Positions 24,181-63,357 of a stretch of 64,000 nucleotides of DNA are shown piece after piece; the first letter of the stretch is position 1; each line of letters opens with the position of its first letter. The notes under the pieces were generated by a model. The model was not told the origin of the DNA and did not search any database. It saw nothing but the letters and a program-made list of their open reading frames with translations. Location of the stretch: the NCBI GenBank assembly GCA_032768795.1, contig CP136498.1, positions 744,001 through 808,000 on the forward strand, given 5' to 3'. Source of the DNA: Tremella fuciformis (taxonomy: Eukaryota; Basidiomycota; Tremellomycetes; Tremellales; Tremellaceae). The position numbers and the translations under genes were made by a program.

Positions 24181-24190
24181 ACATGCCCAC

Positions 24191-24199
24191 GAGGGGAGG
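24191..24199 (+). promoter_or_regulatory. copia E polypurine tract
   Basis: GAGGGGAGG lies immediately before the 3' LTR (24200). It is the expected primer for plus-strand DNA synthesis and fixes the LTR start at CAACGG. Confidence 0.75.
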
Positions 24200-38100: not shown

Positions 38101-41100
38101 TCATATTCCTCTTGGTTTCCCGGGGTTTCTCTTGTGGAAGCTCTCGACGTTTTCAAGAACACCAGTAATGTTCTCAACTGGTTCCCAAGTCGTCTCCTCA
38201 TCTGTTCCTTCGTACCCCACCCACTCGACAAGGTACTGAACTTTCTTGCCCCTTTTTCTAGAGTCGACAACGTTCTTCACCTCATAGCTAGGGCCCTCGT
38301 CGTCTACTTCCACTGGTGGCGGAGGGTCGCAGGTCTGTCCAGGGATTGTCGGCGGGTGGTACGGTTTGAGGCGGAGGACGTTGAAGATCGGGCTCACTCT
38401 CATTGTCAATGGCAACTCCAGCTTGTACGTTGATGGCCCAGTCTTAGCGAGGATCTTGTATGGTCCCCCCCATTTGATGTCAAGCTTCTCCAAGGGTCGT
38501 CGAGTCTTGATGTTTTCCATCGACAACATGACCATCTCACCCACTTTCAAGACTGGCGCTTCCCTTCTCTTTGCATCGTAATACTTGGCGTATCGCTCAT
38601 TGGCTTGCTGTATGGCTTGCTGGCAAGATCGATGCACCTTGTCGAGGGACCCAAGCTTTTCCTTGACCGACGGTATCTCCGCGTGCTCGGCTCCCTCTCT
38701 CAGATCATCCGTCCATTGCGGCGGGTACCCAAAGTTTGCCTCGAACGGGCTCATCCTGATCGCAGAGTGCTGGGTGTTGTTATAGGCGAAAGCTGCACTC
38801 TGCAGGAGACTCGACCAGTTGTCCTGCTTGTGATTGCAGATTACCCGTAGGTACTGCTCGAGGACCTGATTAACTCGCTCTGTCTGCCCGTCGGTTTGAG
38901 GAGGGAAAGCCGTTGACAGGTTGATCTTGATGCCCAGGGCTCCACACAGCGCTCCCCATACTCGACTAGTGAACTTGCTCCCTTGATCAGATACAATGGA
39001 TCTCGGCAACCCATGCTGCGCGACGACGCTGTTGATGATGAGATCGACAAGTCCTGCCGTCGTGAGGCGAGTTGTAGTTGGCACAAAGATAGCCCACTTC
39101 GTCAATCGGTCTACCACGACGAGGATGGAGTTGAAACCCTGGCTGCCGGGGAGTTCCTCAATGAAGTCCATGGAGATCGCTTGCCACGGGCCTTCCGGGA
39201 CTTTGAGACTCTGGAGAAGGCCGTGAGGACGCTGCCGGCTCGTCTTCGTCCTCTGGCAGATGGCACAGCCCCTTACATAGGCCTCAACATCCCGTCGCAG
39301 CCCCAGCCAACAGACATCCCTCCTGAGCAACTCCAGCATTTTGGTGATTCCAGGGTGTCCCGCTAGTCCCCTCATGTCAATCCCGCATCGCCCGGAGTTG
39401 CCCATCGCCCTTGCTAGTGAGGTATAGCCATCCATTGAGTCGCAGGGCCCCGCCAACCTCTATCTGAGCCCGCGTGGGCTCGTCAAGGCCCATCCTTTGA
39501 GCCAGCCCAAACAACTTGGGAAATCCCATCGCATCAATCACCACCCCGTTCTCCTCTTTCTTGATCCTCTCCAACTCTTCTCCAGCATGCTCAAACTCCT
39601 CATCTTCCTCCCAGATGCCCCGAGTACCCGTCCGCGGATCCTCTTTTGCCTCTGGGTCTGGGCTCGATGAGGCTCGTCGAGGCTCCTCAATGAGTGCCCG
39701 AAGCATGTACCCCAGCGACGTCTCCACCATGCTTCCTTGGTCAAAACCAGGTAAGGCCTGCACTTGTTGCTCTTCCAGGTCTAGCCCATCAGGCTTATGA
39801 TCAGGTCTCCTTGACAGAGCGTCTGGGTAGGCCGCCTTGAGGCCAGGTCGATACACAATTCGGAAGGAGAACCCTGCCAGGGCGTCGACCCATCGGGCAA
39901 CCCGGCCACTCAGTTTCCTCGGCTCCATCCAGTAGCTGAGATTATGGTGATCCGTGAGGACCGTACAGCTCACTTGCAACAGGAGATGCCTCTTTCGCTT
40001 GAACACCATCACTATTGCCAGAAACTCCTTCTCTGTTGTTGTCCAATTCAGCTCTGCCCCGGAGAACAACCCAGATTCAATGGCCACTGGATGCTTGAGC
40101 CTCGTTGAGGGGTTGATTTGCGATATCACGAATCCGCATCCGTGGAGCAAGGCCTCCGTCTGCACGATTGTCTTGAATGAGGGATCGAAGTGGGCCAACA
40201 CAGGCGGCTCGCTCATTTGTCTCTTGATCTCCTCGAAGGCCCTTGCCTGCATATCTCCCCATCCAAACGGAACCCCTTTCTTCGTCAGCAGCACTAGGGG
40301 CAGCGCTACCTTGGCGAAGTTTGGTACGAAGCGGCGGTAGTAGTTCGCCAGACCCAAGAACCGACGTACTTCTAGTAGGTTGCTTGGTGCAGGGAAGTCG
40401 ATGACGCCTTTCACGTACCCCGGGTTCGCTTCTACGCCTTCTCGAGAGATGACAAAGCCCAGAAAGTCGACCTTCCTCTTCTCAAACTCGGATTTCGACC
40501 CTTTCACGTACAGTCCCGCCTTCTGCAGCGCCTCAAGTACCGCCTTTGTGAGGGAACGAAGCTTGTCGAGGCTCTTGGCGTGGACCAAGATGTCGTCGAT
40601 GTAGATGACCACTCCTTGCCCAACAAACTCTCTCAGTACCTCGTTAAGGAAGTGCTGGAAGACTGCTGATGCGTTCTTCAAGCCATCTCGCACAACCAAG
40701 GACTTGAACATCCCTAGAGGCGTCCTGAAGGCGGTATAGGCTTTGTGCCCTAACGCCATGCAAAGAAGCTGGTAGGCTCCCGGTAGGTCAAACTTGGTGT
40801 ACCACTCTGACTCCGCCAGATCGGCTGTGACTTGGGAGATCAGCGGCAAGGGATACGCGTCCGACACAGTCGCTTCGTTGAGCTTCCGATAATCCACCAC
40901 CATCCACCATTCCCCAGCAATCTTCTTGGGGACAAAGAAGCTCGGAGACCCATACGCCGCATTTGATGGCCTGATCTTGCCCGCCGCTTGTTCTCTGGCA
41001 AGGAGCTCCCTGAGTGCTCTCATCTGATCCGGCGACAGTTGATAAAGTGGTGCAACCCGCAGCTCCGCGCCTTCCTTCAGTCTAATGCGCAGGCCGTATA

Positions 41101-41839
41101 CTCAACTTGGCGGGAGCGTGTTGGCGGGTCGACGAGGATGGAACACATCGAGGAACTTGTGGTAGTACTCTGGAACAATCCTTTGCACCGCCTGGGATTC
41201 CTCCTCCAACAGGGTGTACTTGTCAGACCCTAGGTGCCCATCCAAACGCCTCACCACTTCCTTGAGCTCATCGGTGACAGTCCCCCGCAGCCGTTCTGCG
41301 GCGAGCCTGTTCTGCTCCCACCGGTTGATCCGCAGGGGAATGTGGTTTGGGGAGCGCCTACGAGGCTGCCCCGCTCGTTTTCCCCTTCCCGTGCTCCCAC
41401 TGGTACCCAAAATGGCCAGTTCACTTGTAGCAGCCTCGATGACCGTCGACGAGGCTATCCCTTTTTCTCTACGGGTAGCTTCCATGGTCCCCATGTCCAT
41501 GACTACTTTCTTTCCTTGCATCCAGTCGTACCCCAGCACAACGTCTGCGCCTGCAAGCCGCGTAACCGCTAGCCGTTCTTCGCTTGTTTCCCCAAGCGCC
41601 TCCACCAGAGCCACCACCTCATGGGTGATTTCTCCCGCAGATGACGGTTTGCCGCCGAACAAGAGGACCTTGCGGGGCCGGTCCAACCTCTGTTGGGCCA
41701 TGCCCTGGCCTTCTGCGTAGTCCTGGTCAATGAAGGTCCCGCCAGCGCCTGTATCTAACAGTATGCAGGCGGCCGTCCCATCCACTTTTCCTGCTACGAC
41801 AGCTTGATGCCTTCCTAGCCTGTAAGCCTCACCGCTCAT
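38101..41839 (-). pseudogene. gypsy B pol (PR-RT-RH-IN-chromodomain), inactivated
   Basis: Minus strand. Protease ILLDTGAGGTFIDQ near 41760. After IHPRR-like DVFHPRRPANTLPPS a TGA (41102-41104) breaks the frame before YGLRIRLKEGAELRVAPLYQ. RT: RPSNAAYGSPSFFVPKK, VVDYRKLNEATVSDAYPLPL, VIYIDDILVHAKS. RNase H begins QTEALLHGCGF where A has QTDASVYGWGF, so its first catalytic Asp is Glu. A frame change lies between 39456 and 39377. Integrase zinc region GHPGITKMLELLRRDVCWLG...CAICQRTK, core SMDFIEELPGS, DQGSKFTS, QTDGQTERVNQVLEQ, and chromodomain SYEVKNVVDSRKRGKKVQYL, ending at 38101. Confidence 0.9.
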
Positions 41840-41991
41840 GCATTCCTCAGCATCACTAGCACTCTGTACAGACTCCAGGTCCTCTGCTTTTTCTTCATGT
41901 CGGTCTTCCTCAACGAGGTAAGCGGACCCCGTCGAAGGTGGGTGAGAGGGCGATGGATTAGAGGATTTGAGAGGTGAAGTTGGGTGTTCAG
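41840..41991 (-). other. truncated upstream part of gypsy B pol/gag
   Basis: Coding-like continuation of B without a recognisable motif, ending abruptly at the copia G LTR. Confidence 0.45.
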
Positions 41992-42338
41992 CGACGGAAT
42001 CTTAGCTCTGAGGCAATGGGATTCCGGTCACCTGTTGCCCGCTCAGCACTTGCTATGAGTGATGCATTCGGACTTACCTGTTGCCCGCTCAGCACTTGCT
42101 ATGAGTGATGAGGAGGGCAACAGGCGGCGGCATTCTACAAGGTCGTCGAGGGTGTTGGCGTTATAGGCGGCGTTATCGTTGGTGGCAGCCTCTCTGCCTC
42201 GTCGAGGGTGAACCTCGTCGAGGCACAACCTCGTCGAGGGTGAACCTCGTCGAGGCACAACCTCGTCGAGGATCTAACCTCGACGAGGTTGCTCGAAGAT
42301 GAGTCAAGCTCATGTGAGCGTACCACCTATTTCCGTTG
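41992..42338 (-). repeat. copia G 3' LTR (347 bp)
   Basis: On the minus strand CAACGGAAATAGG...GATTCCGTCG, the same unusual ends as in E. It is the long subtype, and it carries an expanded array of six CCTCGWCGAGG palindromes (42197-42295), against three to four in the other LTRs of this family. Confidence 0.9.
42190..42298. repeat. expanded CCTCGWCGAGG palindrome array
   Basis: Six copies of CCTCGTCGAGG or CCTCGACGAGG, alternately spaced by GCACAA and GTGAA-type linkers. The copy number differs among the LTRs of this family (three or four in E and the solo LTR), so the array expands and contracts. Confidence 0.9.
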
Positions 42339-42357
42339 CCTCCCCTCGTGAGCATGT

Positions 42358-48038: not shown

Positions 48039-48473
48039 TGTCACGATGCTGCGCTCTCCCGTTGGCAGAGGCCCTCTCGCACAATATCAGAGTCAAGAAT
48101 AAAGGATAAAGGGGTAGAAACGAGGTTGTCGAGGTAGGATCCTCGTCGAGGTTGGATCCTCGTCGAGGTTGCAAGGTCGTCGAGGTAACAAGGTCGTCGA
48201 GGATACAGCGTGAGTGCGACTCAGCCACGCTGCGTGCCACGGAGAGAGTGAGATCGTCAATGATGATCCATGAGACTCAATCAGAGAGTGCTGAAGAACT
48301 ACGACGGGCGCCCGGGGCATCCTATATGACTCTGCGCCTGCTTCCCGCCGTCGCGCGTTCATTCAACGTCTACTCCCTCGTCGAGGTTCTCCAGCCCGAG
48401 GTAGGTCACGTGTCGCTCACGTGAGAGGTGTTGGTCACGTGCGTAGGTCGTCGAGGGCGTGGCCGTCGTGACA
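48039..48473 (-). repeat. gypsy A 3' LTR
   Basis: Plus-strand ends TGTCACGATGCTG and CCGTCGTGACA. It contains two GGATCCTCGTCGAGGTT units, two AAGGTCGTCGAGG units and a further CCTCGTCGAGG, plus three CACGTG boxes close to the U3 end. Confidence 0.95.
48407..48441 (-). promoter_or_regulatory. three CACGTG boxes in the gypsy A U3
   Basis: CACGTG at 48407-48412, 48418-48423 and 48436-48441, within 35 bp, near the start of U3 in the transcription direction of the element. CACGTG is the usual core of bHLH factor sites in fungi. The same three are present in the other LTR (near 55998-56033). A role as an enhancer is inferred. Confidence 0.55.
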
Positions 48474-48819: not shown

Positions 48820-50413
48820 ATGCCCTGGCTACACCTCTCGAGACCAAGAACACTCGACGCATCCACCTTCACCACAAGCTCGCCCCCTCCATCTCCCTAC
48901 ATCCTCTTCGACAGCAGTTCTCTAGACAACGCGCTGTCCTATCCTTCTCCTACAACCCCTACGGCAACTATAGACGAGGCATCTTCTGACTCAGACGGGT
49001 CAGTAACACTCTGCACAGAAACCGATTCTCGATTTGAGACTGTCAGTGTCGACTCGATGTCCAACCCATCCCCATCTCGTGCCGGCACCGCCCAACCCGA
49101 AGGCACCCCCTTCCCATCCCCCACGCAAGCCGCCTCGACTGCCGACATCCCAACAGTCGACGAGGCTGTTCCACTCCCCGCCGTCGGAGCCATCCCACCG
49201 CCCGACGAACAAGCTGCGGAGCTACTCAGCGATGCGCCTGCCGCGGCTGTCCCACAGGAAGAGGGGGAGGAGGAGTTGGATGTAGAGGCTGATGTGGACG
49301 AGCTAGCGCCCGACACTCCGGCATCGTCGAGCTTGTCCGAGGAGGAGATTTCTCCTAGCCGGCGATTTGACCCGCGAAATGCCTCCGAGGAGGCATACTA
49401 TGTGAAGAAGGGATGGGGACTGCCGGTCCCGGAGTCAGAGCCATTGGACCGTTCGTTCTTTGGTAAGTAAAGTCTGCAAGTTTCGCCCAAACTGATCAGT
49501 AGGCTCCCACTACCCCGACCGAGGACAACGGGGATACAACAGATCTCTGACATGGGCCCGGGTGAGTATTGTCAGCTACTTGGTATCCTCTGACATTCAG
49601 CAACAAGCGGGTTCACGGCCAATCCGGGTTCTAGAAGGGGATGAGCGATGTGAGGCGTGTGTCACCGACGACCTCCCGTGTCGCATCGTCGAGGAAGGCA
49701 AGAAAGTGAAGTGCCTAACGTGCGGCACCCTGGCCTGCTCGTTCGGCACGGTAACTCCTGGCCCCTCTTCATCGGCACGGCGCCGTCAGGTGTCTTTCGC
49801 TCGCGGCACGTCTCCCTCGCCCGTCACGCCAGGCATCCGACGCTCCGGCCGACTCGCCGCAGCCCGGTCCACGTCGACGACCTTGGCCGCCGGCCTCGCC
49901 AACATCGACCTAGCGGGCACGGTCAAGGCTTCTGGGAAGAAAGGGAAGGGAAAGGGAAGAGAGAAACGTCGGGCTCGCTCTTCGTCCTCGCCCATCTCAT
50001 CACCGTTGGCACACAAGAGGCTCCGTTTGGGGCATCCTACCTCGACGAGTAGGCTGAGCCCGCTCCCTCCCCCTGCTCCGGAACCGATGGGCGACGCTGG
50101 CACGGGTTGGCTAGGGGATGGCGGACTCGATCCGGTACCTCAAGCCGGACCGTCAAGGACTTCTCACTGGTCTCCACCCCCGCCCATGATGCAGCTACCG
50201 CCGCCAACACCACCACCACCCGCTCCAATGACCTCGACCTCTGCCCCAGACCGCCGGTGGCAAGAGTTATTTCAATTGAGTCACTTCGCTCGCCGGGAGA
50301 CTCAAGCACCGATGCGTACCTACTTTATCTCACGGGCGCGAGACATCGCAGGTGACTTGGGTGTTAACTTCGACGAGTTGACACTTGGGGAGTTTCTCGA
50401 GGAAAAATCTTGA
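48820..50413 (+). CDS. antisense accessory gene of gypsy A (Zn2Cys6-like)
   Basis: Three exons: 48820-49462, 49500-49561, 49601-50413. The introns 49463-49499 (GTAAGT...GATCAG) and 49562-49600 (GTGAGT...CATTCAG) keep the frame, giving about 505 residues. Exon 1 is Ser/Pro-rich with an acidic stretch (EEGEEELDVEADVDELAPD) and ends LDRSFFG. Exon 2 is SHYPDRGQRGYNRSLTWAR. Exon 3 opens QQAGSRPIRVLEGDERCEAC and carries C-x2-C-x6-C-x10-C-x2-C-x4-C (CEACVTDDLPC, KCLTCGTLACSF), then a basic linker (KKGKGKGREKRRARSSSS), and a helical end (FARRETQAPMRTYFISRARD; then GDLGVNFDELTLGEFLEEKS). The cysteine spacing resembles the Gal4-type Zn(II)2Cys6 cluster except for the short last loop. The stop is 120 bp from the pol stop on the other strand. 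An upstream start at 48731 is in another frame. A DNA-binding role is inferred. Confidence 0.75.
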
Positions 50414-50533
50414 CCGTAGCTTGTCTTGTCTTTGACTTCTTGCTTCTTGCTTCTTGCCGTCTTGACTCTTGTACCTTGCCGCATGTATGTTTCTCACCGC
50501 TCACTGCTTCTCAGCCTATGCTCTGTCGCTACT

Positions 50534-53500
50534 TCACTTAGGCCTGGTTGCTGTTTGGCCTCCTGGTTTCTCCGGGTTCTCCTTGTGGAACTTCTCAATG
50601 CTCGCCCAGGCTCCATCAATATTCCCTGCTGGTTCCCATGTCGTCGCCTCATCCGTCCCCTCATACCCAAGCCACTCCACCTTGTACTCCAATCGTCCTC
50701 TCCTTTTCCTCGAGTCAATGATCCTCTTCACCTCGAATGATTCCCCTTCCTCGTCGACTTCCACAGGCCCTGGCGGATCGTATGTTTGTCCTGGGAGCGT
50801 CGGAGGCTCGAATACCTTGAGTCGGTCCACCAAAAAGACTGGATTGACCTTCATCGTGTCGGGCAGCTCAAGCTTGTACGCGCTGCCCGCCTTCGCGATG
50901 ATTCTATAGGGTCCACACCATTTCAAGTCGAGCTTCTTCGAAGGTCGTCGAGTTTGTATGTTCTCCATCGACAGCATCACTTGGTCCCCTACCTTCATCT
51001 CGGGGGCCTCCTGATGCTTGGCGTTGTACCCTCTTGCATATGCCTCATTGGCGAGCTCGATGTTCTTCTTGCACAAGGCGTGCACCTCCTCGAGCGAGGC
51101 AAATTTCTCGACGACTGATGGGATCTCTCGAGCTTCTCCCTCGACGACGATGGATTCTGCCCACCTTGGGGCGTAGCCGAAGTTTGCTTCAAACGGCGTC
51201 ATCATGATTGCCGAATGCATTGAGTTGTTGTACGCGAACGCTGCCCGCTGGAGAAGGGTAGCCCAGTTGTCCTGCTTGTAGTCGCAGAAGATCCTCAGGT
51301 ATTGCTCGAGGGCTTGATTTGTCCTCTCTGTCTGCCCATCCGTCTGAGGGTGGAAGGCCGTCGAAAGGCTGACCTTGATGCCGAGGGTGCTGCACATTGC
51401 ACCCCAAAGCTTGCTGGTGAACTTGCTTCCTCTATCCGAAATGATGCTCGTGGGTAGCCCATGCTGCGCTACCACATTGTCGAGGACAAGGTCGACCAAG
51501 CCTGCCGTGTTGAGCCGAGTTGTCGTAGGGATGAAGATAGCCCATTTGGTGAGCCGGTCGACGACGACAAGGATCGAGTTGAAGCCCGAGCTGGCGGGAA
51601 GCTCCTCGATGAAGTCCATGGATATCGAGGACCATGGCCTGTCAGCAATCTCCAGGCTGTGTAACAGGTCATGGGGACGCTGACGCACCGGTTTGCACCG
51701 CTGACACACTGCACACCCTCTCACATACTTCTCCACATCCCGTCTTAGTCCCAACCAACAGTACTCCCTCCTAACCAGCTCCAGCATCTTCGCAACTCCA
51801 GGATGTCCAGCCAATTGCCCCTCGTGGTGATCTCGCATGACCTTTACTCTTGCCTGTTTGATGTCCGGGATGTAGAGTCGCCCGTTGATCCTGAGTAGGC
51901 CATCCTCGTCGAACTTGATCTTGCTTGCCTCGTCGAGGCCCAGTCTTTTTGCCAGTGACCATGCCCTTGGGTTCTCCTCCTTCGTAATCCTCTTCTCCTC
52001 TCTTAGCTCCCCAAGCTCCTCCAATGTATCCTTCAAGTCCTCATCTCCGCCCTGCCCTTCCTTCAATTCTCCTCGAGACAGTCCCCTCAATTCTCCTTCC
52101 TCGTCTTCTCCTTCTTCTTCGTCTTCTCCTCCTTCTTCGTCTTCCACCAACGCTCGCAACATGTAGCCCAGACTGGATGTGACCGTACTCTCCTCGTCGA
52201 AGCTTGGCAGGGCTTGAACTAGCTCTGGTTCTGCGTCCTTGCCCTGTGGGATGTAGTCGGCCCTCCTCGATAATGCATCCGGGTAGGCTGCCTTGGTTCC
52301 TGGTCGATAGACGATCTTGTATGAGAAGCCAGCCAGGGTATCCACCCATCTCGCAACTCGAGGGCTGAGTTTCTGTGGCTCCATCCAATATGTGAGGTTG
52401 AGATGGTCGGTCAAGATCGTCGAGGTAACCTGCAGAAGGAGGTGTCGACGCCGCTTAAAGGCCATAACGATCGCGAGGAACTCTTTCTCCGTGGTGGTGT
52501 AGTTGAGCTCCGCTCCTGAGAAGGCTCCCGACTCGACAGCAACAGGGTGTTCTTGTCCTGTCGAGGAGTTCACCTGCGAGATGATGAACCCCCATCCATA
52601 GACCGAGGCGTCTGTCTGGATGATAGTCTCGAACGTCGGGTTGAAGTGAGCGATCACTGGTGCTTCGCTCATTCGCCTCTTGATCTCCTCGAACGCCCAC
52701 TGCTGTCCGTCTCCCCAATGGAAGTCGATATCCTTCCTTGTGAGGTGCGAGAGAGGCCCAGCGAGCTTGGAGAATTGCGGTACGAAGCGTCGGTAATAGC
52801 TCGCAAGACCGAGGAACCGTCGAGTTTCGTGTAGGTTTCGAGGGGTAGGGAAATTGCGAACACCCTCGACATACCCACTGTCAGCCTCGACGCCCTCGTG
52901 CGAGATGATGAAGCCCATGAACTTCACCTTAGTCTGCTCGAACTCCGACTTAGACGCCTTCACAAACAGTCCAGCCTTCCGCAACGCCTCCAGCACCGCC
53001 TTAGTCAATCTCCTAAGTTCCTCGAGGTTCTCCGCATGGATGAGAATGTCGTCGATGTAGATGATGACCCCTTTTCCCAGGAATTCGTGCAGGACTTCGT
53101 TCAAGAAGTGTTGGAACACGCTAGGCGCGTTCCGAAGTCCGTCTCGCACCACCAGTGACTCGAACATTCCTCGAGGGGTACGGAATGCTGTGAACTTCTC
53201 ATGTCCAGGAGCCATCCGGAGCAGCTGGTATGCTCCCGGCAAGTCGAGCTTCGTGTAGTATCTCGACTTGGCTAGGTCGTCGGTCACTTGGGATATCAGG
53301 GGTAGCGGATACGCGTCTGGCACCGTCATCTCGTTGAGCTTGCGATAGTCGACAACCATTCTCAGTTCTCCTTGGGCCTTCTTTGGTACGAAGAAGCTTG
53401 GTGACCCATAGGGCGAGTTCGAGGGTCGAATCCTTCCAGCCTTTCTCTCTCGATCCAGCAACTTGTCGAGCGCATCCATCTGATCTGGGTTCAGGCTATA

Positions 53501-54616
53501 CAGCGGGGCCACTCGTAGATCGGCTCCAGGTTTAAGCGTGATGCGTAGGTCGTATTCTCTACTTGGAGCAAGCGTCTCTACCCCTCGTCGAGGATGGAAG
53601 ACCTCGAGGTATTCGTGATATCGCTCCGGGACAAGATGTTGCACGGCTGCTTCCTCTTCTGGGCTGAGTTCGTACTCGTCATAGTCGGGTAGGACGTCGA
53701 TATATGCCTCCTTCTTGCTCAACTCCTCGGTCACTGTGCCGCATAGCTCGACTGTATTTCCCTGGTTCTGCTCCCATCGGTTGAATGGGAGCTCAATGCT
53801 GTTCGCCTTCGATCGCCTGCTCCTTCGTCTACCTTGTCGCCTTTCCGCCTTGGTCTCCAATGTTCCTGATAGTCGAGAGACCTCGTCGAGGTTCTGTGGT
53901 CCGTTCTCCTGGTTCGTCTCTTTCCCGCCTGTCCTCTTCCTTGTCGCCTTCTTCCTTCCAGCATCCAATATCACACCGTTCTCCTTCATCCAGTCATATC
54001 CCAACACCACGTCCGCTCCTGCCAATGTTGTCACACCTAACTCTTCCCTTCCTTCACCGCCTAGGACTTTTACTGTTCCCGTCACTCCCTTTTCTACTTG
54101 TCCTGCTGAGCTTGGTTTACCGTCAAAGAGGAGGAGTTGCCGGGGTCGAGGGAGTGGGTAACAGGGGATGTGATGCCGTTCAACGAACACAGAGTCGACG
54201 AAGTTACCAGTGGCCCCGGTGTCGAGCAGCACCTTCACCCCGTCGACTTGATTGACGCTTCCTGACACGACAGCCTGCTCTCTGCCTAAACAGCAAACCT
54301 CACCACGAATGCATGCCTCCTCATCACTAGCTATTCCGTCCGTGGCAACCAGTGCCTTCTCATCTTTCGCTTCTTCGTCGAGGTTCGGGATTAAAGGTGA
54401 TTGTGATACAGGGGGGTTGGGAGGTGAATGGGGAGGGGAGGTGGCCGAGAGGATGTCTTGATGGGGCCGCTGGACCTCTCGTATGTTCTCAGCGTCCCTC
54501 AAGCTTTTGGGTCCTCCTGCTTGACGATAGGTCGGCCGGGTGCAGGGCTGCCTCGAGGAACGGGAGGTCGTTGCCCGGGAACACAGGCGTTGGCGAAATG
54601 ACCGACTCCGCCGCAT
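50534..54616 (-). CDS. gypsy A pol: protease, RT, RNase H, integrase, chromodomain
   Basis: An open minus-strand frame of about 1,360 codons without its own ATG at the front. It is reached from gag by -1 frameshifting at 54505-54511, after which it reads PKSLRDAENIREVQRP. Protease VLLDTGATGNFVDS (about residue 131). RT IRPSNSPYGSPSFFVPKK, VVDYRKLNEMTVPDAYPLPL, IYIDDILIHAENL. RNase H QTDASVYGWGF. Integrase zinc region GHPGVAKMLELVRREYCWLG...CAVCQRCK, core SMDFIEELPAS, SDRGSKFTSK, QTDGQTERTNQALEQY. Chromodomain FEVKRIIDSRKRRGRLEYKV, WLGYEGTDEATTWEP, ending NPEKPGGQTATRPK at 50534. All catalytic residues are intact. Chromodomains of this class usually direct integration to heterochromatin. Confidence 0.95.
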   Translation of the reverse strand: MRRSRSFRQRLCSRATTSRSSRQPCTRPTYRQAGGPKSLRDAENIREVQRPHQDILSATSPPHSPPNPPVSQSPLIPNLDEEAKDEKALVATDGIASDEEACIRGEVCCLGREQAVVSGSVNQVDGVKVLLDTGATGNFVDSVFVERHHIPCYPLPRPRQLLLFDGKPSSAGQVEKGVTGTVKVLGGEGREELGVTTLAGADVVLGYDWMKENGVILDAGRKKATRKRTGGKETNQENGPQNLDEVSRLSGTLETKAERRQGRRRSRRSKANSIELPFNRWEQNQGNTVELCGTVTEELSKKEAYIDVLPDYDEYELSPEEEAAVQHLVPERYHEYLEVFHPRRGVETLAPSREYDLRITLKPGADLRVAPLYSLNPDQMDALDKLLDRERKAGRIRPSNSPYGSPSFFVPKKAQGELRMVVDYRKLNEMTVPDAYPLPLISQVTDDLAKSRYYTKLDLPGAYQLLRMAPGHEKFTAFRTPRGMFESLVVRDGLRNAPSVFQHFLNEVLHEFLGKGVIIYIDDILIHAENLEELRRLTKAVLEALRKAGLFVKASKSEFEQTKVKFMGFIISHEGVEADSGYVEGVRNFPTPRNLHETRRFLGLASYYRRFVPQFSKLAGPLSHLTRKDIDFHWGDGQQWAFEEIKRRMSEAPVIAHFNPTFETIIQTDASVYGWGFIISQVNSSTGQEHPVAVESGAFSGAELNYTTTEKEFLAIVMAFKRRRHLLLQVTSTILTDHLNLTYWMEPQKLSPRVARWVDTLAGFSYKIVYRPGTKAAYPDALSRRADYIPQGKDAEPELVQALPSFDEESTVTSSLGYMLRALVEDEEGGEDEEEGEDEEGELRGLSRGELKEGQGGDEDLKDTLEELGELREEKRITKEENPRAWSLAKRLGLDEASKIKFDEDGLLRINGRLYIPDIKQARVKVMRDHHEGQLAGHPGVAKMLELVRREYCWLGLRRDVEKYVRGCAVCQRCKPVRQRPHDLLHSLEIADRPWSSISMDFIEELPASSGFNSILVVVDRLTKWAIFIPTTTRLNTAGLVDLVLDNVVAQHGLPTSIISDRGSKFTSKLWGAMCSTLGIKVSLSTAFHPQTDGQTERTNQALEQYLRIFCDYKQDNWATLLQRAAFAYNNSMHSAIMMTPFEANFGYAPRWAESIVVEGEAREIPSVVEKFASLEEVHALCKKNIELANEAYARGYNAKHQEAPEMKVGDQVMLSMENIQTRRPSKKLDLKWCGPYRIIAKAGSAYKLELPDTMKVNPVFLVDRLKVFEPPTLPGQTYDPPGPVEVDEEGESFEVKRIIDSRKRRGRLEYKVEWLGYEGTDEATTWEPAGNIDGAWASIEKFHKENPEKPGGQTATRPK

Positions 54617-55578
54617 CGGAAGCAGAGGCGCTGCTCGTTCCTCCTCTGACGTTCGGCAGGGTCGAGACCTCCAGGAGGCGTTGACCTGAAACCAGGCGGG
54701 CCACTAGGGGCTGGCGATGGACGCGTCGACGGGATCGGCGGGAGAGGTCGGTAGGTCGACGAGGCAGGGAGAGCAGCTTGCTGCTGGGTAGTCGGGGCTG
54801 GTCGTCGTCGAGCTTCTTCGTACCGCTTGACCTCTGCCTTCTTCTCAGCCTCCCTTGCTCTGAGCCTGTTGTCCAACTTGATGACATAGGACTGAAGCTC
54901 TCCGAAGGTCTCCAGCTCCACTGTGGTCCGAGCAACCTCGTCTCGAAGATTGTCTGAGAGGCCCTCGAGCGCCCTAGCTCTAGCTTGCTCGTTGGCTTCC
55001 CATCCCAAGACCGCCAGGTACTCCCTAAGCTTCGCGAAGTACTCTGCCGCTGATCCGGTCTGCTTCAAGTCGAAGTATCGCCTCTGAGCGGTCCCCTTGA
55101 TGTCGGGTCCTCCGAAGTTGTCCCTCAAGTATCTCGACAGCCTCTGGAAGCTACTGATCTTCTCGTCGAGCTCGTCTCCCGACGCGAGAGGTTGGATAGC
55201 GTCCTGAACGAATCCTCTGAGGAAGGAGATGGCGTAAATGACCTTGGACTCCTCTGTGAACTTCGAAGGCTGTAGCCGAAAGACGATGTTACATTGCATG
55301 AGGAATCCTTCGAGTTTCTCCGGCTTTGAGCCATCGAAAGTGTCGGGCGGGTTGGCCTTCGGCTCGCTCGATGATGCGCTGGTCGAGGGAGCGGGGGAGT
55401 TGGCTCGTCGAGCCTCGATGGCAACGAGCTGTTGCAGGATCTGAGCGAGGGAAGCCTGATCCGCCATGTTGTTGGGTGTGCTAGACCGGCTAGCAGGAGG
55501 AAGACGAAGGGACTGTGGTAAAGCTTGGTGCTCGTGGTTCGGGTTGAGTGATGTCGAACGTCGAGTCTCGATGGGCAT
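54499..55578 (-). CDS. gypsy A gag
   Basis: Minus strand, ATG at 55578 (MPIETRRSTSLNPNHEH); a second ATG starts MADQASLAQILQQLVAIEAR. The frame is open a little further upstream but the first ATG is taken. Capsid-like retrotransposon gag region: KFTEESKVIYAISFLRGFVQ, and GSAAEYFAKLREYLAVLGWE. A basic linker leads to one zinc knuckle RLCFRCGGVGHFANACVPG (C-x2-C-x4-H-x4-C). It stops with TGA at 54499-54501, overlapping pol by 118 nt. Confidence 0.92.
   Translation of the reverse strand: MPIETRRSTSLNPNHEHQALPQSLRLPPASRSSTPNNMADQASLAQILQQLVAIEARRANSPAPSTSASSSEPKANPPDTFDGSKPEKLEGFLMQCNIVFRLQPSKFTEESKVIYAISFLRGFVQDAIQPLASGDELDEKISSFQRLSRYLRDNFGGPDIKGTAQRRYFDLKQTGSAAEYFAKLREYLAVLGWEANEQARARALEGLSDNLRDEVARTTVELETFGELQSYVIKLDNRLRAREAEKKAEVKRYEEARRRPAPTTQQQAALPASSTYRPLPPIPSTRPSPAPSGPPGFRSTPPGGLDPAERQRRNEQRLCFRCGGVGHFANACVPGQRPPVPRGSPAPGRPIVKQEDPKA
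54505..54511 (-). other. gypsy A -1 ribosomal frameshift heptamer
   Basis: Gag codons GAC CCA AAA GCT TGA contain C CCA AAA, an X XXY YYZ slippery heptamer. A one-base back-slip gives CCC AAA AGC TTG AGG, which opens the pol frame (PKSLRD). The same arrangement occurs in gypsy C. Confidence 0.8.
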
Positions 55579-55609
55579 ATGCCCCGGGTGTGCGTGGTTG
55601 TGCGAAGAG

Positions 55610-55629
55610 GTAATAGCACTCTCTGATAC
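55610..55629 (-). promoter_or_regulatory. gypsy A primer binding site
   Basis: Immediately after the 5' LTR (minus strand) comes GTATCAGAGAGTGC. TATCAGAG resembles the widespread initiator-Met tRNA primer site, with the usual TGG offset or mutated. Confidence 0.5.
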
Positions 55630-56064
55630 TGTCACGATGCTGCGCTCTCCCGTTGGCAGAGGCCCTCTCGCACAATATCAGAGTCAAGAATAAAGGATAA
55701 AGGGGTAGAAACGAGGATGTCGAGGTAGGATCCTCGTCGAGGTTGGATCCTCGTCGAGGTTACAAGGTCGTCGAGGTAACAAGGTCGTCGAGGATACAGC
55801 GTGAGTGCGACTCAGCCACGCTGCGTGCCACGGAGAGAGTGAGATCGTCAATGGTGATCCATGAGACTCAATCAGAGAGTGCTGAAGAACTACGACGGGC
55901 GCCCGGGGCATCCTATATGACTCTGCGCCTGCTTCCCGCCGTCGCGCGTTCATTCAACGTCTACTCCCTCGTCGAGGTTCTCCAGCCCGAGGTAGGTCAC
56001 GTGTCGCTCACGTGAGAGGTGTCGGTCACGTGCGTAGGTCGTCGAGGGCGTGGCCGTCGTGACA
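55630..56064 (-). repeat. gypsy A 5' LTR
   Basis: 435 bp, 431 identical to 48039-48473. It contains the same CTCGTCGAG units and three CACGTG boxes. Confidence 0.95.
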
Positions 56065-56639
56065 GGCAGACCAAGTCAGCTGCCGAGCACTTCGCTAAGG
56101 TCAGGGAGCTTGTTGCGGTTGCTGGTTTCACTGATCAGGTCGCGATTGTGGACTGGGCCATCCATGGGCTCAAGTCTCATCTTAAGGACGAGATCGCTAA
56201 GCGCGGCGAGTTCTACTCGCTGACCGAACTCGTCGAGTTTATTGTGCCTCTAGACAATCGCCTCCGTCATCGCGAGGAGGAGAGGAAGCTGGAGGAGGCT
56301 GCTGCGGCGAAGGCTGAAAGGCACAAGCCGGAGTATGCCAAGGCTGAAGCGCCAGCGCGACGCCCATGGGCTGAGCGCTTGGGCGCGTCGCTCCCGCCTG
56401 CTCGCCTCAGCGAGCAGCGCGGCGAGTCCTCGGCGAGTTCGGGCCCTTCTGGGTCAGACTTGCTGAAGTCAACGCGCAACCCCGATGGGTCTCTGACGGA
56501 GGCCGAGAGGGAGCGCCGTTTGCACAGCGGGCTCTGCTTGCGGTGCGGGCAGGGCGGCCACCAGCTGGCTAACTGCCCTACCGCTAAGCCGAGGCCGCTG
56601 CCCCCGATTCCCGCCCAGGGACAGGCCCCAAAAGCCTGA
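56065..56639 (+). pseudogene. gypsy C gag, N-terminus missing
   Basis: Open from the junction: [40 protein letters not shown], then a charged linker and the zinc knuckle [17 protein letters not shown] (C-x2-C-x4-H-x4-C). It ends GQAPKA with TGA at 56637-56639. The first codons belong to the neighbouring LTR, not to a real start. Confidence 0.85.
56627..56633 (+). other. gypsy C -1 ribosomal frameshift heptamer
   Basis: GCC CCA AAA GCC TGA contains C CCA AAA in the gag frame. Slipping back one base yields CCC AAA AGC CTG AGG (PKSLR) and an open pol frame. Position relative to the stop and the peptide are the same as in gypsy A. Confidence 0.8.
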
Positions 56640-59600
56640 GGGATGGTGGACAACAGCTCGGCGAGCATCATCCCTTTCCGCATCGACTCGCCGCGACCGT
56701 GATCTCTGACTGTTCCCGTTCTCCTTCATCCCAGACCGATGATACCCGTATACCCGTGACTCACACTGATTCCCCACAAGGTTGGGCAGCCTCCGAGAGG
56801 CTCCTAGACAACCCCACGCACGCTGTTGTCGCAGGTCGCATCAGCGGGCATTCCGCGAAGGTCCTCCTGGATTCAGGAGCCTCCGCTAACTTCCTCGCCA
56901 AGTCGTTCGCCGAGCGACACCGCATTGCCCTCAATGCGTACGACAAGCCCGTCGGACTCACCTTGTTCGATGGAGTAGAGTCGTCTGATGGCCCGCTGAC
57001 TCACTTCTCTCGCGAGCGAGTCGAGGTGGGCCAGTTTGCTGGCACAGCAAGGTTCGAGCTCACGCGCTTGAATGGAGCTGATGCAGTGTTGGGCTACCCG
57101 TGGCTGCAAACTCGCCGAGTTGTCATCGACTTCGGCGAGGGAATTGTCACGGGAGCATCCTCGCAAGGTTGGGCAGAGCCCGTTCCCACTTCCAATGTCG
57201 CCGAGTCATCTCCCTCGTCCCTCTCTCACCCGCCGCCGCCGAGCTCCACCGTGTCCCCTGAATCCACCAAGTCCACCGAGTCCCCTGAAGTCGCCGAGTC
57301 TACCGAGTCCTCTACACCCGCTGCGTCCGCCGAGTCCCCTGTGCCCGTTGATCCTGAGCCCTGCTCTTTCCCTTGCCCCGCTGTCCCTACCGAGTCCGTT
57401 GATCCTGAGCTGTCCAACACCTTGCCTTCCCCCTGCTTGTCGACCAAGGATGATCGAGCAGGACGGTCGCCAAGCGCCGAGCCCTCGCTGAGGAAGCAGC
57501 AGCCGGGGAAGAGGCGAGTTAGAAAGAGGCAGATGGGAACAAAGAAACGCGCGTTCTCTCGCTCAAACTCCATCCCCGTGACTCTTCCCTGCCGCTGGCC
57601 ATTCGTTGCGGTTGCTGAAGAGCTGAAACTGTGCGCGGTATCCATAGACTCGCCGAGCTCGCTGAGGTTTGACCAGTTGGACGAGCTCAGCTCATGGCCC
57701 TCTTTCGAACCGCCCGCCGAACTCTCCGAGGCCGAGATTCAGCTGATCGCCGCCAGCGTTCCTGACCAGTACCTGGAGTTCCTCAACATCTTCCATCCCA
57801 GGAAGGGCGTCGAGACTCTTGCACCGCACCGAGCCTATGACATGAAGATCGAGCTGAAGGGGGGCAGCTCGCTCAAGCTTGCCCCGCTCTATGAGGTCGC
57901 CCAAGATCAGAAGGAAGCTATGAGGCAAATCCTCGAGCGAGAAGAAGCCGCGGGCCGGATCCGGCCTAGCAACTCGCCGTACGGCTCGCCGACTTTCTGC
58001 GTGCGTAAGACTGACGGCGTGAACTGGCGAATGGTGGTGGATTACCGACATCTGAACAGCGCCACCGTTCCTGATGCTTACCCCGTTCCGCTGATTTCTC
58101 AAGTCATCTCTGACCTTGGTGGCTCCGAGTGGTTCTCCTGCTTTGACCTGGTCTCGGCGTACCAGTTGCTCAGGCTCGCCAAAGGATTTGAGAGCCTCAC
58201 CGCCTTCCGCACGCCGTTTGGCATGTACGAGTCGCTGGTCGTGCGTGATGGGCTGCGAAACGCACCGGCCGTCTTTCAGCACTTCCTGAATGAGCTGTTC
58301 AGTGATCTCAGGCAGTGGGTCACGGTATACATCGACGACATCATCGTCCACGCCAAGACACTCGAGGAGCTTCGCCGAGTCACTCGGCTAGTTCTGGAGC
58401 GAGTGCGAGGAACCTCTTTGTTCCTGAAGGCGAGTAAGTGCCGGTTTGAGCAGAGATCCGTAAAGTTCCTGGGGTTCTTGATCTCCAAAGACGGCGTGGC
58501 GGCTGATCCGGGCTACGTCCAAGGGGTCCAAGAGGCTTCGAGGCCCAAGGATCTCCATGAGGTGCGGCGCTTTCTGGGAATGGCGAGCTATTATCGGCGA
58601 TTCGTTCCCCACTTCGCTAAGGTCGCCGGGCCGCTACACCATCTGACGAAAGCGTCGGTCGGGTTCCATTGGAATGAGGAGCAGGAACAGGCGTTCCAGG
58701 CGCTGAAGGAGAAACTGAGCCAGGCTCCGGTGCTCGCTTTCTTCAACCCGGAGTTGCCGACGATCGTGCAGACTGACGCATCAGCCTATGGCTGGGGCTT
58801 CGTCATCTCGCAAGTCAACTCGGCGAATGAGGAGCACCCCGTGGCCATTGAGTCGGGCTCGTTCAAAGGCGCCGAGTTGAACTACACGGTGACTGAGAAG
58901 GAGTTCTTGGCTATCGTTCACGCCTTCCGACGTAAGCGGCATCTGTTGTCCCAGGTTCATTCCACGGTCATCACTGACCACTTGAATCTTACTTACTGGA
59001 TGGAGCCGCGGCAGCTGAACCCTCGCCAGGCTAGATGGGTTGAGATCTTAGCTGGGTTCGATTACAAGATCGTGTATTGCCCTGGTAAGGAGGGCGAACT
59101 TCCTGATGCGCTCTCCCGGGACTCGGCGTATCTCCCAGGGCCATTGATGCAGCAGCCGCAGAACTTCATCCAGGCACTCCCCACCGCCGACTCTTCCTCC
59201 ATGGTCTCGTCCTCCCTCGGCCACCTCCTCCGTGCAGCAACACTCGGCGAGATCGGTGTCGAGGAGGAGGAGGAGGAAGAGGTCGGCGAGGAACGCGTTG
59301 AGGTTGCCGAGTTGTCCCCGGTCCTGGCTGAGTTAACCTCTGACGCGCCTACTCTCGCCTCAACTCACCCCGTCCTGTTGGGATTTTGCCGAAGGCTCGG
59401 CTTCTCTGGGGAAGCGCTCTTGCAGCGTGACCCCGAGGGAAGGCTGCGAGTCGACGGACGACTGTACGTGGAACCGGGGCCAGAACGGGTGCAGATCCTG
59501 AAGGGACGGCACGAAGCTATCCTCGCCGGACATCCGGGCGTTGCGAAGACTCTCGAGCTGGTGAAGCGGGACTATGCGTGGCTTGGCCTTCGGCGCGACG

Positions 59601-60844
59601 TGGAGGCCTTCGTTCGCGCATGCGCAGTATGCCAGCGGACCAAGACTGACCGTCACCGAGCTCACGGCTAGCTCCAGCCGCTGGAGAAAGCGGAGAGGCC
59701 TTGGGCATCCATCTCCATGGACTTCATCGAGCCCTTGCCGGTCTCTAACGGTTGTGACTCGATTCTGGTGGTTGTTGACAGACTGACCAAGTGGGCGATT
59801 TTCATTCCGACGACCACTCGGCTCAACTCGGCGGGACTCGCCGAGTTGATCATAGATCACGTGGTGTGTCAACACGGGCTTCCGCAATCCATCGTCTCCG
59901 ACCGAGGTTCCAAGTTCACCAGTAAGCTGTGGGCTAACTTGTGCAAGGCTTTGGGTATTAAGCTGTCCTTGTCCACGGCCTTCCATCCTCAGACTGATGG
60001 GCAAACTGAGCGGGTGAATCAGGTACTCGAGCAGTATCTCCGGGTTTTCTCGACCTATCAGCAAGACAACTGGGCTAAGCTCTTGCCATGCGCGTCGTTC
60101 TCGTATAACAACTGGAAGCACTCGGCTATCGAGATGTCTCCGTTTGTAGCAAACTTTGGGTACTCGCCGAGGTGGACGGAGAACTTGGTGAACTCGGAGA
60201 ACTCGGAGAAGGAGGGTGCGGATGCCGGTGAACGACTGGGGCTGCGGAAGGCAACAGAGCTGAGTGACCTGCATGAGCTCTGTCGGGCTAACATTGAGGC
60301 GGCGAACCGCGATTATGCGAGGCACTACGATGCTAAGCACTCGTCGCCGCCCAGCTTCAAGATCGGCGACTCGGTGCTCCTCTCGCTGAAGAACATTGAG
60401 ACTCGGCGACCGATGAAGAAGCTGGACCTCAAGTTCGGTGGACCGTTCGAGATCATCGAGCAGGTCAACCCGGTAACGTATCGCCTCGCTCTCCCTCCCT
60501 CCATGAAGTGTCACGACGTCTTTCACGTCAACCTCCTGAAACCCTTCCAGCAGCCTACCCTGCCCGGCCAGTCGTACGAGCCTCCCGACCCGGTGGAAGT
60601 GGACAGCGAGCTGGGGGAGAGCTGGGAGGTCGCGGCAATCCTGGATTCTCGAATACGCCGTGGACGCCTTGAGTACCTTGTTGAGTGGTTGGGCTTTGAG
60701 CTCACGGATGAGCGCGCGACTTGGGAGCCGCTAGCTCATGTGAGCGAGTCGGCCGCCGAGCTCGTCGCGGACTTCCACGCCGCCCACCCAGAGAAGCCGT
60801 CAAGTGCGCCAAAGCCTCGGCGAGGCGCTCGCCGAGCCGTATGA
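56634..60844 (+). pseudogene. gypsy C pol with a single in-frame TAG
   Basis: Continuous in the -1 frame from the slippery site. Protease KVLLDSGASANFLAK (near 56860; DSG instead of DTG). A Ser/Pro/Glu-rich linker. RT IRPSNSPYGSPTFCVRK, VVDYRHLNSATVPDAYPVPL, TVYIDDIIVHAKT. RNase H QTDASAYGWGF. Integrase zinc region GHPGVAKTLELVKRDYAWLG...CAVCQRTK, then TAG at 59669-59671 after DRHRAHG. The same frame resumes LQPLEKAERPWASISMDFIE, DRGSKFTSKLW, QTDGQTERVNQVLEQY, and ends with a chromodomain (WEVAAILDSRIRRGRLEYLV). Apart from the TAG nothing is broken, so only the integrase would be lost. Confidence 0.92.
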
Positions 60845-60935
60845 ACACTGCGTATTCCTGCTTGAATAATGCGTTCACGAGAATGATGCACAGAGCACTC
60901 TATAATCAACGACTATGAACACCCCCTCCCCTCTT

Positions 60936-62238
60936 CTAATGTCCTCCCGACCCACCGGGGGCCGGTCCCTCGCTGAGGTCGTCAAGACCCCACTCGCTCA
61001 GATCCTCCCCAAGCATGCGTCGCAGCTCATTGACGGCGTACTGACGCAGTCGGGGGTTGTCCGGGCTGCGCGCGAGCGCCGCGAGGCCCTGGGCGGCTGC
61101 AAAGTCGCCCGGGCCGATGTGGCGTGCCGCAGGCCGCTGAGGTGTCACGGGCGGCGCGTCGCGCCGCGGTGTCGCTGGGGGCTCGCCGTGCTGTGGCGTC
61201 CGCTCGGCGCTCGGCGAGCCGGACGGCGCCTCCCCATCCTTCAGGGTGCATCGACCGGTTGTGCAGGTGAAGCACTTTTGGCCTATTGTACCCGGCGGGA
61301 CGAGACAGCGGCGTCCCTCTCGTCTACACCGACGACACGGCCGCTCGGCGTCTACCGCGTCCTTGTGGAGGTCCTGCAGATGAGTATCTACCGCTGGTTG
61401 TGAACGGGCACTGACGAGGATCTTCGCTGGCGTCCGATTCTCATGTCGTCCGGCTCGGCGCGGGGTCGCTGGAGGCGCCGCCGGTCTTCGGGATGGTGTC
61501 GCGGCCGCAGGCGTCCGCGGCGCCGCTCGCGGTGTCGGTCTTCGCGCCCCCTCCCCCTCTCCCCTCCTCTCCCCCTCTCCCCTCCTCTCCCCCTCCTCCC
61601 TCCCCTTGCCCTTCCAGCCCATCGCCGCCTGCAGCGCCTCCATAGAGGCCTCCATTCTCTCGGCCGCCGCCTGCAGCGCGGCCTCAGCCGCCTCCTCCGC
61701 CTTCATGTCGACGTCGTCGACCCCGCTGACCCCGCTGACCTCCCTGACCTCGCTCACCTCGCCGCGCGGTCGGCGACTGGTTCGTGTGCGTGGCGGCGTG
61801 GGCAGGCGCTCGCCGAGGGGTAAGTCATGTACGACGGAGTAAACTACGTCGCACATCGGGGCCTCCGAATCGGGTCGGTCGAAGGGGTTGAGATAGGCGG
61901 TGGCACCAGCCCGCCAGGTTGCCTCGGCGTCAAAGACGCTATCGGTTCGTTCGAGCCCTGCCCGTCAGTCTCGTCTCTCCTTGGTATCGCCGCTGTGGCT
62001 TACGCCGGCGCTGCCCCATCCGCTCGCCCTCCCCTTCGTCCACCGGCAGAGCAGGCTCGAGCTCGAGCCTCTCCGCGCCGCCCTCGTCCACCTCCATCTC
62101 CTCGTCCTCCTGCTCGAGCTGCGTCAGCGGCGAGCTGCCGCCATCGTCCGCCTCCTCCTCCTTCCACTCCTCCTCCTCCTCCTCCTCCTCCTCCTCCTCC
62201 TCCCCCTCCTCCTCCCCGTCCACCACTCCCCTCATCAC
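60936..62238 (-). CDS. antisense accessory gene of gypsy C (Zn2Cys6-like)
   Basis: Minus strand, ATG at 62238. Exon 1: a Glu run, then QLEQEDEEMEVDEGGAERLE. A 46-nt intron (about 62012-61967, GTAAGCC...CTGACGGGCAG) leads in phase to exon 2: RLERTDSVFDAEATWRAGAT, LNPFDRPDSEAPMCDVVYSV, helical VDDVDMKAEEAAEAALQAAA, a basic repeat-like stretch (GERRGEGERRGEGEG), and the cysteine motif CRRCRREGRRC...KCFTCTTGRC (C-x2-C-x6-C-x10-C-x2-C-x4-C). Then Pro/Arg linkers and a helical end (NPRLRQYAVNELRRMLGEDL). The stop at 60936 is 91 bp from the pol stop. It has the same position, strand, cysteine spacing and architecture as genes A and B, but little sequence identity outside the motif. Confidence 0.72.
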
Positions 62239-62854
62239 CTCCCCGACAACCTCCTCCTCGCCGAGCTCTTCGATCTCGAGCTCGTCGCTTGCCGAGCGCT
62301 CTCGACGAGTGCCGCGCCCGCGACCGAAAGTCCGCTGGGTGCCGTCGAATCCTTCCCGTCAGCCCTGCATCTCCCTCTTCTCGGCCACTCACGTCGCGTC
62401 GGCTGCTCCTCTCGCCCCTCTCCCCCCCCCTCGCTCCGCCCCCTGGCCCTGCACAACCAGGGCTACCCTCGACGGCACGACGAATCGCCCGCCCCACCCT
62501 TCGCGTCAGCCACCAGTTCGCTCGCTCGGCGCGCTGCGTGCGCCGACTCACTGGTCTGCCCTTCCGCCTGGGCTCGTCGTCTCGCCGCGCTCGCCTTGCG
62601 CGTTGCCACTGGTGTTGTTGGGGCCATGTTGTTGCTGGCCGAGTGATGAGATAACGGAGAATGGAAAAGCTGAGTCCTCTGTCCACTTGTCCTCGGCCGT
62701 GTGTTTGGTTGCCCAGCAACTAGCGCGTCTCGCCGTTAACATCGTACCTGAAAGGACCTCGCTGACCGTCTCGCCGAGTCCCTCACCGAGCCCCTCGCCG
62801 AGTCCCTCGTCGACCTCGCCGACTCCGCCGCCGACTTCCACAACCACGACTATC

Positions 62855-62886: not shown

Positions 62887-63357
62887 TGTCACGACGGACG
62901 TAGGGAGAGCACATGGAAGCCACGTGGGGAGACGGAGCTCGGACTCGTTGATTCAACGCATCACTCGCCGAGCTCACCGAGGGACGACGGATACTTAGGA
63001 AGACTGGGCGCGCGATACGTTCCGTAGTCTTCTCCCAATTGTTGTTCTCTGCAGACACGTAGACTGCCTGCTCCGTCCCGTCGCTTGGCTTGCCAGTGAC
63101 ACCGAGTCCCTCGCCGAGTTCCCCGTCTATCTCCCTCAACTCGCTTGCGCTCGTCGAGTTCAGCTTCCTGCTCGCCGAGTTCAGCGAGTCCCTCGCCGCA
63201 CCCCTCGCTCAACCCGTTCACCTCCTTGAGCTCGGCGAGTCCCTCGCCGAGCTCCTCGCCCAACTCGCTCATACCTATCGACGTCAACGACCCCCACGCC
63301 GACCGTTCGGAGTACGTGCCCGCCGGGCCCTGGGCAGAGAAGGCGGTCGTCGTGACA
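62887..63357 (+). repeat. gypsy C 3' LTR (471 bp)
   Basis: TGTCACGACGGACG...GGTCGTCGTGACA, TG...CA ends. It is rich in CTCGCCGAG/CTCGGCGAG units (63110-63270), the counterpart of the CTCGTCGAG units of A. One CACGTG lies near 62923. Confidence 0.82.

Follow-up and report, generated by a model that had tools for sequence, protein, structure and literature searches.

Three retrotransposons in a 64,000-nucleotide stretch of the Tremella fuciformis genome (contig CP136498.1, positions 744,001 to 808,000; called the window below) raise the question of whether the gene lying antisense between pol and the 3' long terminal repeat (LTR) of each encodes a functional protein, and what that protein might do for the element. 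The pol products of the three elements, designated A, B, and C, match the Pfam families RVT_1, RNase H, rve, SH3_Tf2-1, and Chromo, which identifies the elements as chromodomain Ty3/gypsy retrotransposons. The original prediction, made from the window sequence, placed a convergent opposite-strand gene for a cysteine-rich protein just past the pol stop in each element, and this arrangement, with the gene ahead of the 3' LTR, is borne out in all three, as are the gaps to pol of 120 bp in A, 134 bp in B, and 91 bp in C (facing ends 50413/50534, 37966/38101, and 60844/60936; Table 1). That the antisense gene is real, conserved, and borne by the elements can be stated with very high confidence.

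Every splice site of the antisense genes reported here is a prediction. Short introns, proposed for all three genes, are predicted in A (504 codons in total), in B as represented by the sister copy L035 (four exons, 556 codons, and introns of 44, 39, and 47 nt), and in C. Two introns are common to A and B, at the same place and in the same phase, before the motifs (S/P)xYP and xQA, and the C gene appears to have an intron at the place matching the second of these. The gene in B is present as claimed, but the window copy is broken, with 336 codons comparable in frame compared with the 556 codons of the family gene; sister copies are intact. The start proposed for the C gene at 62238 is probably too far downstream, since open conserved sequence runs to about 62334, and an extra 5' exon with an ATG near 62627 is likely.

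Coding constraint was estimated as the ratio of nonsynonymous to synonymous substitution (dN/dS) by the Nei-Gojobori method, with the predicted frame compared to alternative frames. The A gene has values of 0.15, 0.24, 0.15, 0.24, 0.31, and 0.24 against six relatives (71-99% DNA identity), while the B gene (L035 against four relatives) has values of 0.19, 0.36, 0.22, and 0.19, and two diverged pairs of C copies have values of 0.30 and 0.20. The ratio is therefore not near 1 in all copies, but 0.15-0.36 in A, B, and C with the exception of two near-identical C pairs, which are considered below. In the other two sense frames the ratio is 1.02-8.2 for A and B and 0.84-4.6 for the diverged C pairs. 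One antisense reading that shares wobble positions is also low (0.20-0.44); however, the predicted frame is lower still in 10 of 10 comparisons of A and B. A survey of intactness, covering A and B loci, found the ATG, splice sites, and frame kept at 16 of 20 A loci tested (16 of 17 at 95% identity or more) and 12 of 20 B loci tested, with two of the eight B failures (L034 and L040) at least partly due to trimming of the start.

The distribution of the gene was examined in 28.1 Mb of eukaryotic genome sequence on 11 contigs. An RNase H query listed at least 150 gypsy pol loci, of which the best 94 were taken, and core matches came from protein-level searches of this genome, run with the B core and the C core, 80 of the 87 matches being used. 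Among those best 94 loci, 74 have a pol of the type shared by A, B, C, and a further family, D (at least 67% identity), and the check for homologous elements lacking the gene found a core no more than 5 kb downstream at 64 of these 74, on the opposite strand in 63 cases and on the same strand in one. The next 20 loci of the 94 (52-54% identity) have an A-D-type core in none of 20 cases, while one of them, L077, carries a separate six-Cys gene (family E). A convergent pol among the loci listed lies upstream of 63 of the 80 core matches; among the other 17 is the core of L068 (family D), where pol is split by a copia insertion. The strong matches in the own-genome searches are A-D-type, the few others have E values of 0.002-0.24, and no convincing host homologue was found with either core. 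Lying inside an LTR-bounded element (borders were fixed for A, E, and F), downstream of pol, and kept in most copies, the gene can be classed as an antisense accessory gene (aORF-3R).

The proposal of an element-encoded antisense protein family is upheld by purifying selection in A, B, and C, and by the presence of the gene in family D, where it ends about 52 bp from the pol stop; similar genes occur in families E and F. The two LTRs of family E (L077), at C10:338921-339619 and within L077:1458-2156, are identical, and the intronless antisense gene of this family, between pol and LTR, encodes 163 residues with six cysteines and a probable coiled-coil. Family F (L073) likewise has identical LTRs and an antisense six-Cys open reading frame (ORF), and comparison of L073 with the diverged copy L078 shows 45.6% protein identity over 103 residues with all six cysteines kept. 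The distance between gene and pol, measured at ORF ends, is 52-134 bp in A-E and about 460 bp in F. When an A plus B profile was used, the proportion of cysteine-preserving decoys reaching the observed score was 7/402 for C, 0/396 for D, 20/422 for E, 2/398 for F, and 153/382 for F78. Families E and F may be either fast-evolving relatives of A-D or independent acquisitions, homology not being established. A relative of F at G000:C3:1128395-1134663 has two LTRs with about 92% identity to those of L073 and is missing most of the antisense region between pol and LTR, making it a natural deletion derivative.

Nine further gypsy loci (L069-L077), chosen by eye so that each represents a different pol type, include the two carriers L073 and L077. 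No six-Cys gene was found inside the element at the other seven (L069-L072 and L074-L076), and six of the nine have no six-Cys frame within 3.4-3.6 kb after pol, with antisense genes without the cysteine pattern possible in L069, L070, and L076. L074 has two six-Cys frames (1072-1767 and 3184) just beyond its LTR and is counted as a non-carrier; the second of these frames resembles the motif of an ordinary Zn2Cys6 regulator.

The six-Cys motifs sit where they were first placed, at 37421 (+, B), 49649 (+, A), and 61337 (-, C), and the spacing claimed for them is confirmed as 2-6-10-2-4 in A and C and 2-6-11-2-5 in B. The pattern C-x2-C-x6-C-x8-11-C-x2-C-x4-6-C has only three matches in the six frames of the 64 kb, one per element, and no match in 60 block-shuffled windows. 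The spacing in the other families is 2-6-8-2-4 in D, 2-6-8-2-6 in E, and 2-8-8-2-6 in F. A shared helical C-terminus had also been claimed, and this holds for some pairs of families: the segments of C and D (E=6e-7), A and D (0.001), and B and C (0.002) are alike, but the likeness is unconvincing between A and B (0.027), A and C (0.20), and B and D (4.2).

The cysteine pattern had been compared to that of Gal4-type Zn2Cys6 regulators (PF00172), which have the spacing consensus C-x2-C-x6-C-x5-12-C-x2-C-x6-8-C and, according to PROSITE PS00463, basic recognition residues between the second and third cysteines. The two share the order C-x2-C-x6-C followed by C-x2-C-xn-C, a fungal origin, and acidic and basic flanks, but A-D have a last spacer of 4-5 and lack the basic recognition signature and a Pfam score, and no fold was recognised. 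Measured against this consensus, the last spacer of A-D is too short, F falls outside, and only E fits. In Pfam scans at E up to 1, PF00172 matched neither the whole A protein, nor the B core, nor the last exon of C, and at E up to 10 it matched neither the last exon of D nor the E and F proteins; the basic signature is present in 0 of 11 core sequences. A first hhalign run was marginal (2 of 60 controls), and a cleaner rerun with seven reference sequences gave no support for likeness beyond the cysteines, the score of 18.3 being reached by 14 of 100 cysteine-preserving controls. A weak AlphaFold2 model from a three-row alignment has a predicted local distance difference test score (pLDDT) of 72 and no Foldseek match at E<=0.001. 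With spacing in A-D, Pfam, the basic signature, and controlled profile comparison all failing to support it, the Gal4 label should not be used for the antisense protein, which is best called six-Cys and zinc-cluster-like; the pairing of the cysteines suggests zinc binding.

Searches for named relatives of the protein have been negative. None of the families A-F has a credible Pfam assignment, the sequences scanned being those given above for PF00172, and NCBIfam has none for D, E, or F. A PDB sequence search, made with the E protein only, returned nothing significant, with a weak zinc-cluster match to PUT3 (E=1). The B core and the E protein were the antisense queries run against the protein database; the former gave 673 candidates, none at E<=0.1, and the latter 46 candidates, none at E<=1. 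As a control, the reverse transcriptase (RT) region of A pol gave 5161 proteins at E<=1e-20 among 7982 scored, and among the matches listed the named relatives closest to the A pol are from Tremella mesenterica (66% identity), Tremellales sp. Uapishka_1 (68%), and Kwoniella shandongensis (64%, with 80% of the query covered), which means that the database does contain relatives of the host. The negative result for the antisense proteins is nevertheless a weak one, because a hit requires exact words in common, and proteins that are short, evolve fast, and are spread over several exons may be missing from the annotation. A single weak match to a viral contig (29%, E 5e-5) was rejected, as the locus has 36% guanine plus cytosine and short ORFs, and the matched stretch has no six-Cys motif. 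Pol queries against viral and prokaryote contigs found no relative.

In addition to the A gene, which has a TATA-like sequence upstream of its start codon (Table 1), TATAAA or TATAAG boxes precede the start at -66 in B (L035), at -68 in E (L077), and at about -122 in D (L068); C is the one family among A-E in which none was found. The presence of TATA-like boxes in four of five families examined suggests an internal promoter for the antisense gene. The LTRs and 3' internal regions of the carriers are crowded with short repeated sites. The palindrome CTCGNCGAG occurs 64 times in the window compared with 1.96 expected, while the next odd 9-bp palindrome occurs 8 times. The carrier sequence of A-D (20.1 kb) has 29 copies, the seven non-carrier gypsy loci (28 kb) have 2, and other sequence of the window (28 kb, other copia remnants included) has 1; the genome-wide count is 5111, compared with 1428 for the reversed pattern. 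The density is about 7/kb in the A LTRs against 0.7/kb in A pol, and 13/kb in the C LTR against 1.9/kb in C pol. The centre base is mostly A/T in A, B, and two copia elements, and mostly G/C in C. The palindrome is also dense in copia LTRs (window 19521-24414, 32879-33109, and 42076-45970), with six sites at 42198-42287 in a 16-bp period. Family E does not have CTCGNCGAG; it has an 18-copy degenerate 10-bp array (L077:1004-1457) with GGAA mostly at multiples of 10 bp, the register of the helical turn. The array is directly upstream of the TATA-like box of the antisense gene, and a related 10-bp repeat is found in the LTR (1498-1570). These repeated sites resemble operator arrays of the kind that a DNA-binding dimer would read.

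The best reading of the protein, which we consider to have about an even chance of being correct, is that of a zinc-binding nuclear regulator of the element, acting through DNA binding. It builds on the gene structure, the purifying selection in A, B, and C, the presence throughout the clade, and the convergent arrangement. Under this reading, the accessory gene that this chromodomain Ty3/gypsy clade of a basidiomycete carries antisense between pol and the 3' LTR would be read from an internal promoter and its transcript spliced. The product would be an acidic, zinc-binding, basic protein with a helical C-terminus, in which the six cysteines would bind zinc and the C-terminus would mediate dimerisation. 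Located in the nucleus, it would bind short repeated sites in the LTR and 3' internal region, for which the candidates are CTCGNCGAG in A-D and the 10-bp GGAA array in E, and binding would tune transcription or silencing of the element as well as expression of the gene itself. A more specific version, in which the A-D clade encodes a sequence-specific dimeric six-Cys regulator with CTCG-N-CGAG operators in the LTRs, and the copia arrays share or exploit this regulon, can be put forward only tentatively.

Two sets of observations run counter to this picture. The first, a strong point against a regulator of this kind, is the presence of the same palindrome in two copia elements that have no six-Cys gene, one of them with the 16-bp LTR array, so that a host factor could be its reader; there may be a reader common to gypsy and copia elements. 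The second, which bears on the coding constraint, is that the two near-identical C pairs have dN/dS of 0.92 and 0.74, on 11 and 19 changes, and that one shifted frame is lower in these pairs (0.28 and 0.47). The values would look so if the changes arose after insertion.

Retroviral accessory proteins often act in particle or integration steps, and the antisense protein could serve the transposition particle or the integration complex as an accessory, with a role as nucleic-acid chaperone, in nuclear import, or as chromatin tether. A small, cysteine-rich, basic protein with a helical C-terminus is consistent with this role, and the part of PMC7264820 that deals with retroviral accessory proteins offers a comparison. 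However, the gene is on the strand opposite gag-pol and requires a separate transcript, the acidic N-terminus (exon 1 of A and the acidic exon of C) is atypical of a chaperone, and the LTR palindrome clusters are left without a role. On balance we think this explanation rather unlikely. Conserved accessory genes of mobile elements often counter host silencing or restriction, and convergence at 52-134 bp in A-E would yield double-stranded RNA needing neutralisation, as would suit an anti-silencing factor acting on host chromatin or RNA interference proteins instead of LTR sites. The longer gap in F and the lack of a family match in the Pfam and NCBIfam scans made argue against such a factor, which seems improbable.

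The same close convergence in A-E means that transcripts could overlap, and retroelement antisense RNAs are known (discussed in part of PMC7264820), so the RNA could be what matters, through double-stranded RNA copy control, with the protein as a by-product. This explanation is very unlikely, being largely refuted by purifying selection at the amino-acid level, by the six cysteines kept in F at 45.6% identity, and by the young copies that keep frame and splice sites. Passive carriage of a captured host Zn2Cys6 gene, for which the Gal4 spacing of E and its non-significant match to PUT3 could be cited, is barely credible given the lack of a convincing host homologue in the B and C core searches and a clade-wide retention with low dN/dS that is not passive carriage.

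The layout of these elements is already known. The opinion that nothing of the kind had been described in fungi was too strong, as the antisense gene brtn in Boty of Botrytis cinerea is in print (Zhao et al. 2011, as cited in passages of PMC7264820, PMC8365987, and PMC4227169). Boty is also a fungal chromodomain gypsy element with an added antisense gene between pol and the 3' LTR (PMC7264820 and PMC4227169), but the passages on brtn, with which comparison is by description only, mention no cysteine cluster, introns, or clade-wide selection. The term "antisense" is absent from the main text of two surveys of fungal LTR elements (PMC3248453 and PMC2864245), and a figure legend in PMC2864245 mentions an additional ORF of unknown function. 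Searches of the open-access literature, a scope that excludes the original Boty paper, gave no recognised description of a six-Cys or zinc-cluster protein encoded by a fungal retrotransposon. Nor did they turn up this type of protein, its introns, constraint throughout a clade in a basidiomycete, or the association with a palindrome.

HBZ of human T-cell leukaemia virus type 1 (HTLV-1) is a bZIP protein and in this respect unlike the six-Cys protein. It resembles the present case in being encoded antisense at the 3' end of an element that uses reverse transcription, and it is a nuclear regulator (according to a passage in PMC11963269), the role that the protein would have here. The HTLV antisense promoter is in the 3' LTR (as given in part of PMC7264820), whereas the TATA-like box here is internal. 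The plant aORF-3R genes include Grande gene23, that of RIRE2, and Retand TRP28; the present gene differs from these in its six-Cys core and short introns and in being hosted by a basidiomycete. TRP28 has a different domain, and Retand is not a chromovirus. An internal promoter has been reported for gene23 (in a passage of PMC7264820), and nearly all Retand clusters have antisense TRP28, suspected of DNA binding, with tandem repeats nearby in about half (in a passage of PMC11963269).

The LTR pair of element A is 99.1% identical, and CTCTGCCCACCTTTG, directly inward of its 3' LTR, is the polypurine tract on the element strand. Despite the LTR identity, element A has no obvious 5-bp target-site duplication (GGGGC at 48034-48038 and GGCAG at 56065-56069), possibly due to inter-element recombination. 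The window also contains two copia elements in opposite orientations (20634-24498 and 41992-45904), 95.8% alike across 3.9 kb and about 17.5 kb apart, and a transposase-like remnant at 7823-8989, an ORF with a DDE_1 (DDE superfamily endonuclease) domain.

Table 1. Coordinates of features of elements A, B, and C in the window.
Feature	Position	Strand	Basis
A antisense gene exon 1, acidic, Pro/Ser-rich	48820..49462	+	open frame; donor GTAAGT; dN/dS of whole coding sequence 0.15-0.31
A antisense gene exon 2, SHYPDRGQRGYNRSLTWAR	49503..49561	+	intron positions and phases as in family B
A antisense gene exon 3, encoding the six-Cys core and the helical segment at the C-terminus	49601..50413	+	open frame, dN/dS, segment comparison
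A six-Cys core, C-x2-C-x6-C-x10-C-x2-C-x4-C	49649..49738	+	pattern scan
A TATA-like CATAAACA, 65 bp upstream of start codon	48755..48762	+	sequence inspection
A 3' LTR CTCGTCGAG palindromes, two of three (third at 48377), within 17-bp tandem units	48142..48167		motif scan
A 3' LTR	48039..48473	-	LTR pair comparison, ends read from sequence
A pol (protease, RT, RNase H, integrase, SH3, chromodomain)	50534..54703	-	domain matches
A 5' LTR	55630..56064	-	LTR pair comparison, ends read from sequence
B antisense gene, degenerate window copy	36175..37966	+	compared with intact sisters elsewhere, e.g. L035
B six-Cys core, C-x2-C-x6-C-x11-C-x2-C-x5-C	37421..37516	+	pattern scan
B pol, fragmented (protease 41102-42001, RT/RNase H 39377-41101, integrase/chromo 38101-39459)	38101..42001	-	domain matches
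C antisense gene, acidic exon	62004..62334	-	conserved beyond the start first proposed
C antisense gene, middle exon	61416..61957	-	conservation, selection analysis
C antisense gene, last exon, encoding the six-Cys core (61337-61248) and the helical segment at the C-terminus	60936..61376	-	motif scan, selection analysis
C pol	56588..60844	+	domain matches; single in-frame stop where ORFs 56588-59671 and 59672-60844 join
C 3' LTR, six CTCGNCGAG	62887..63357	+	ends read from sequence; motif count

Antisense accessory genes of LTR retrotransposons are an open problem, being common in some plant lineages and cited in one fungal case, brtn. In the fungal clade described here the protein is compact, its chemistry is suggestive and its coding constraint strong, intact copies are numerous, and there is a palindrome that is a candidate for its cognate site. 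With a compact constrained protein and a candidate palindrome both in hand, the question of whether there are retrotransposon-encoded transcription factors becomes directly testable in vitro. Should the copia arrays prove to use the same operator, unrelated transposon families would be linked in their regulation.

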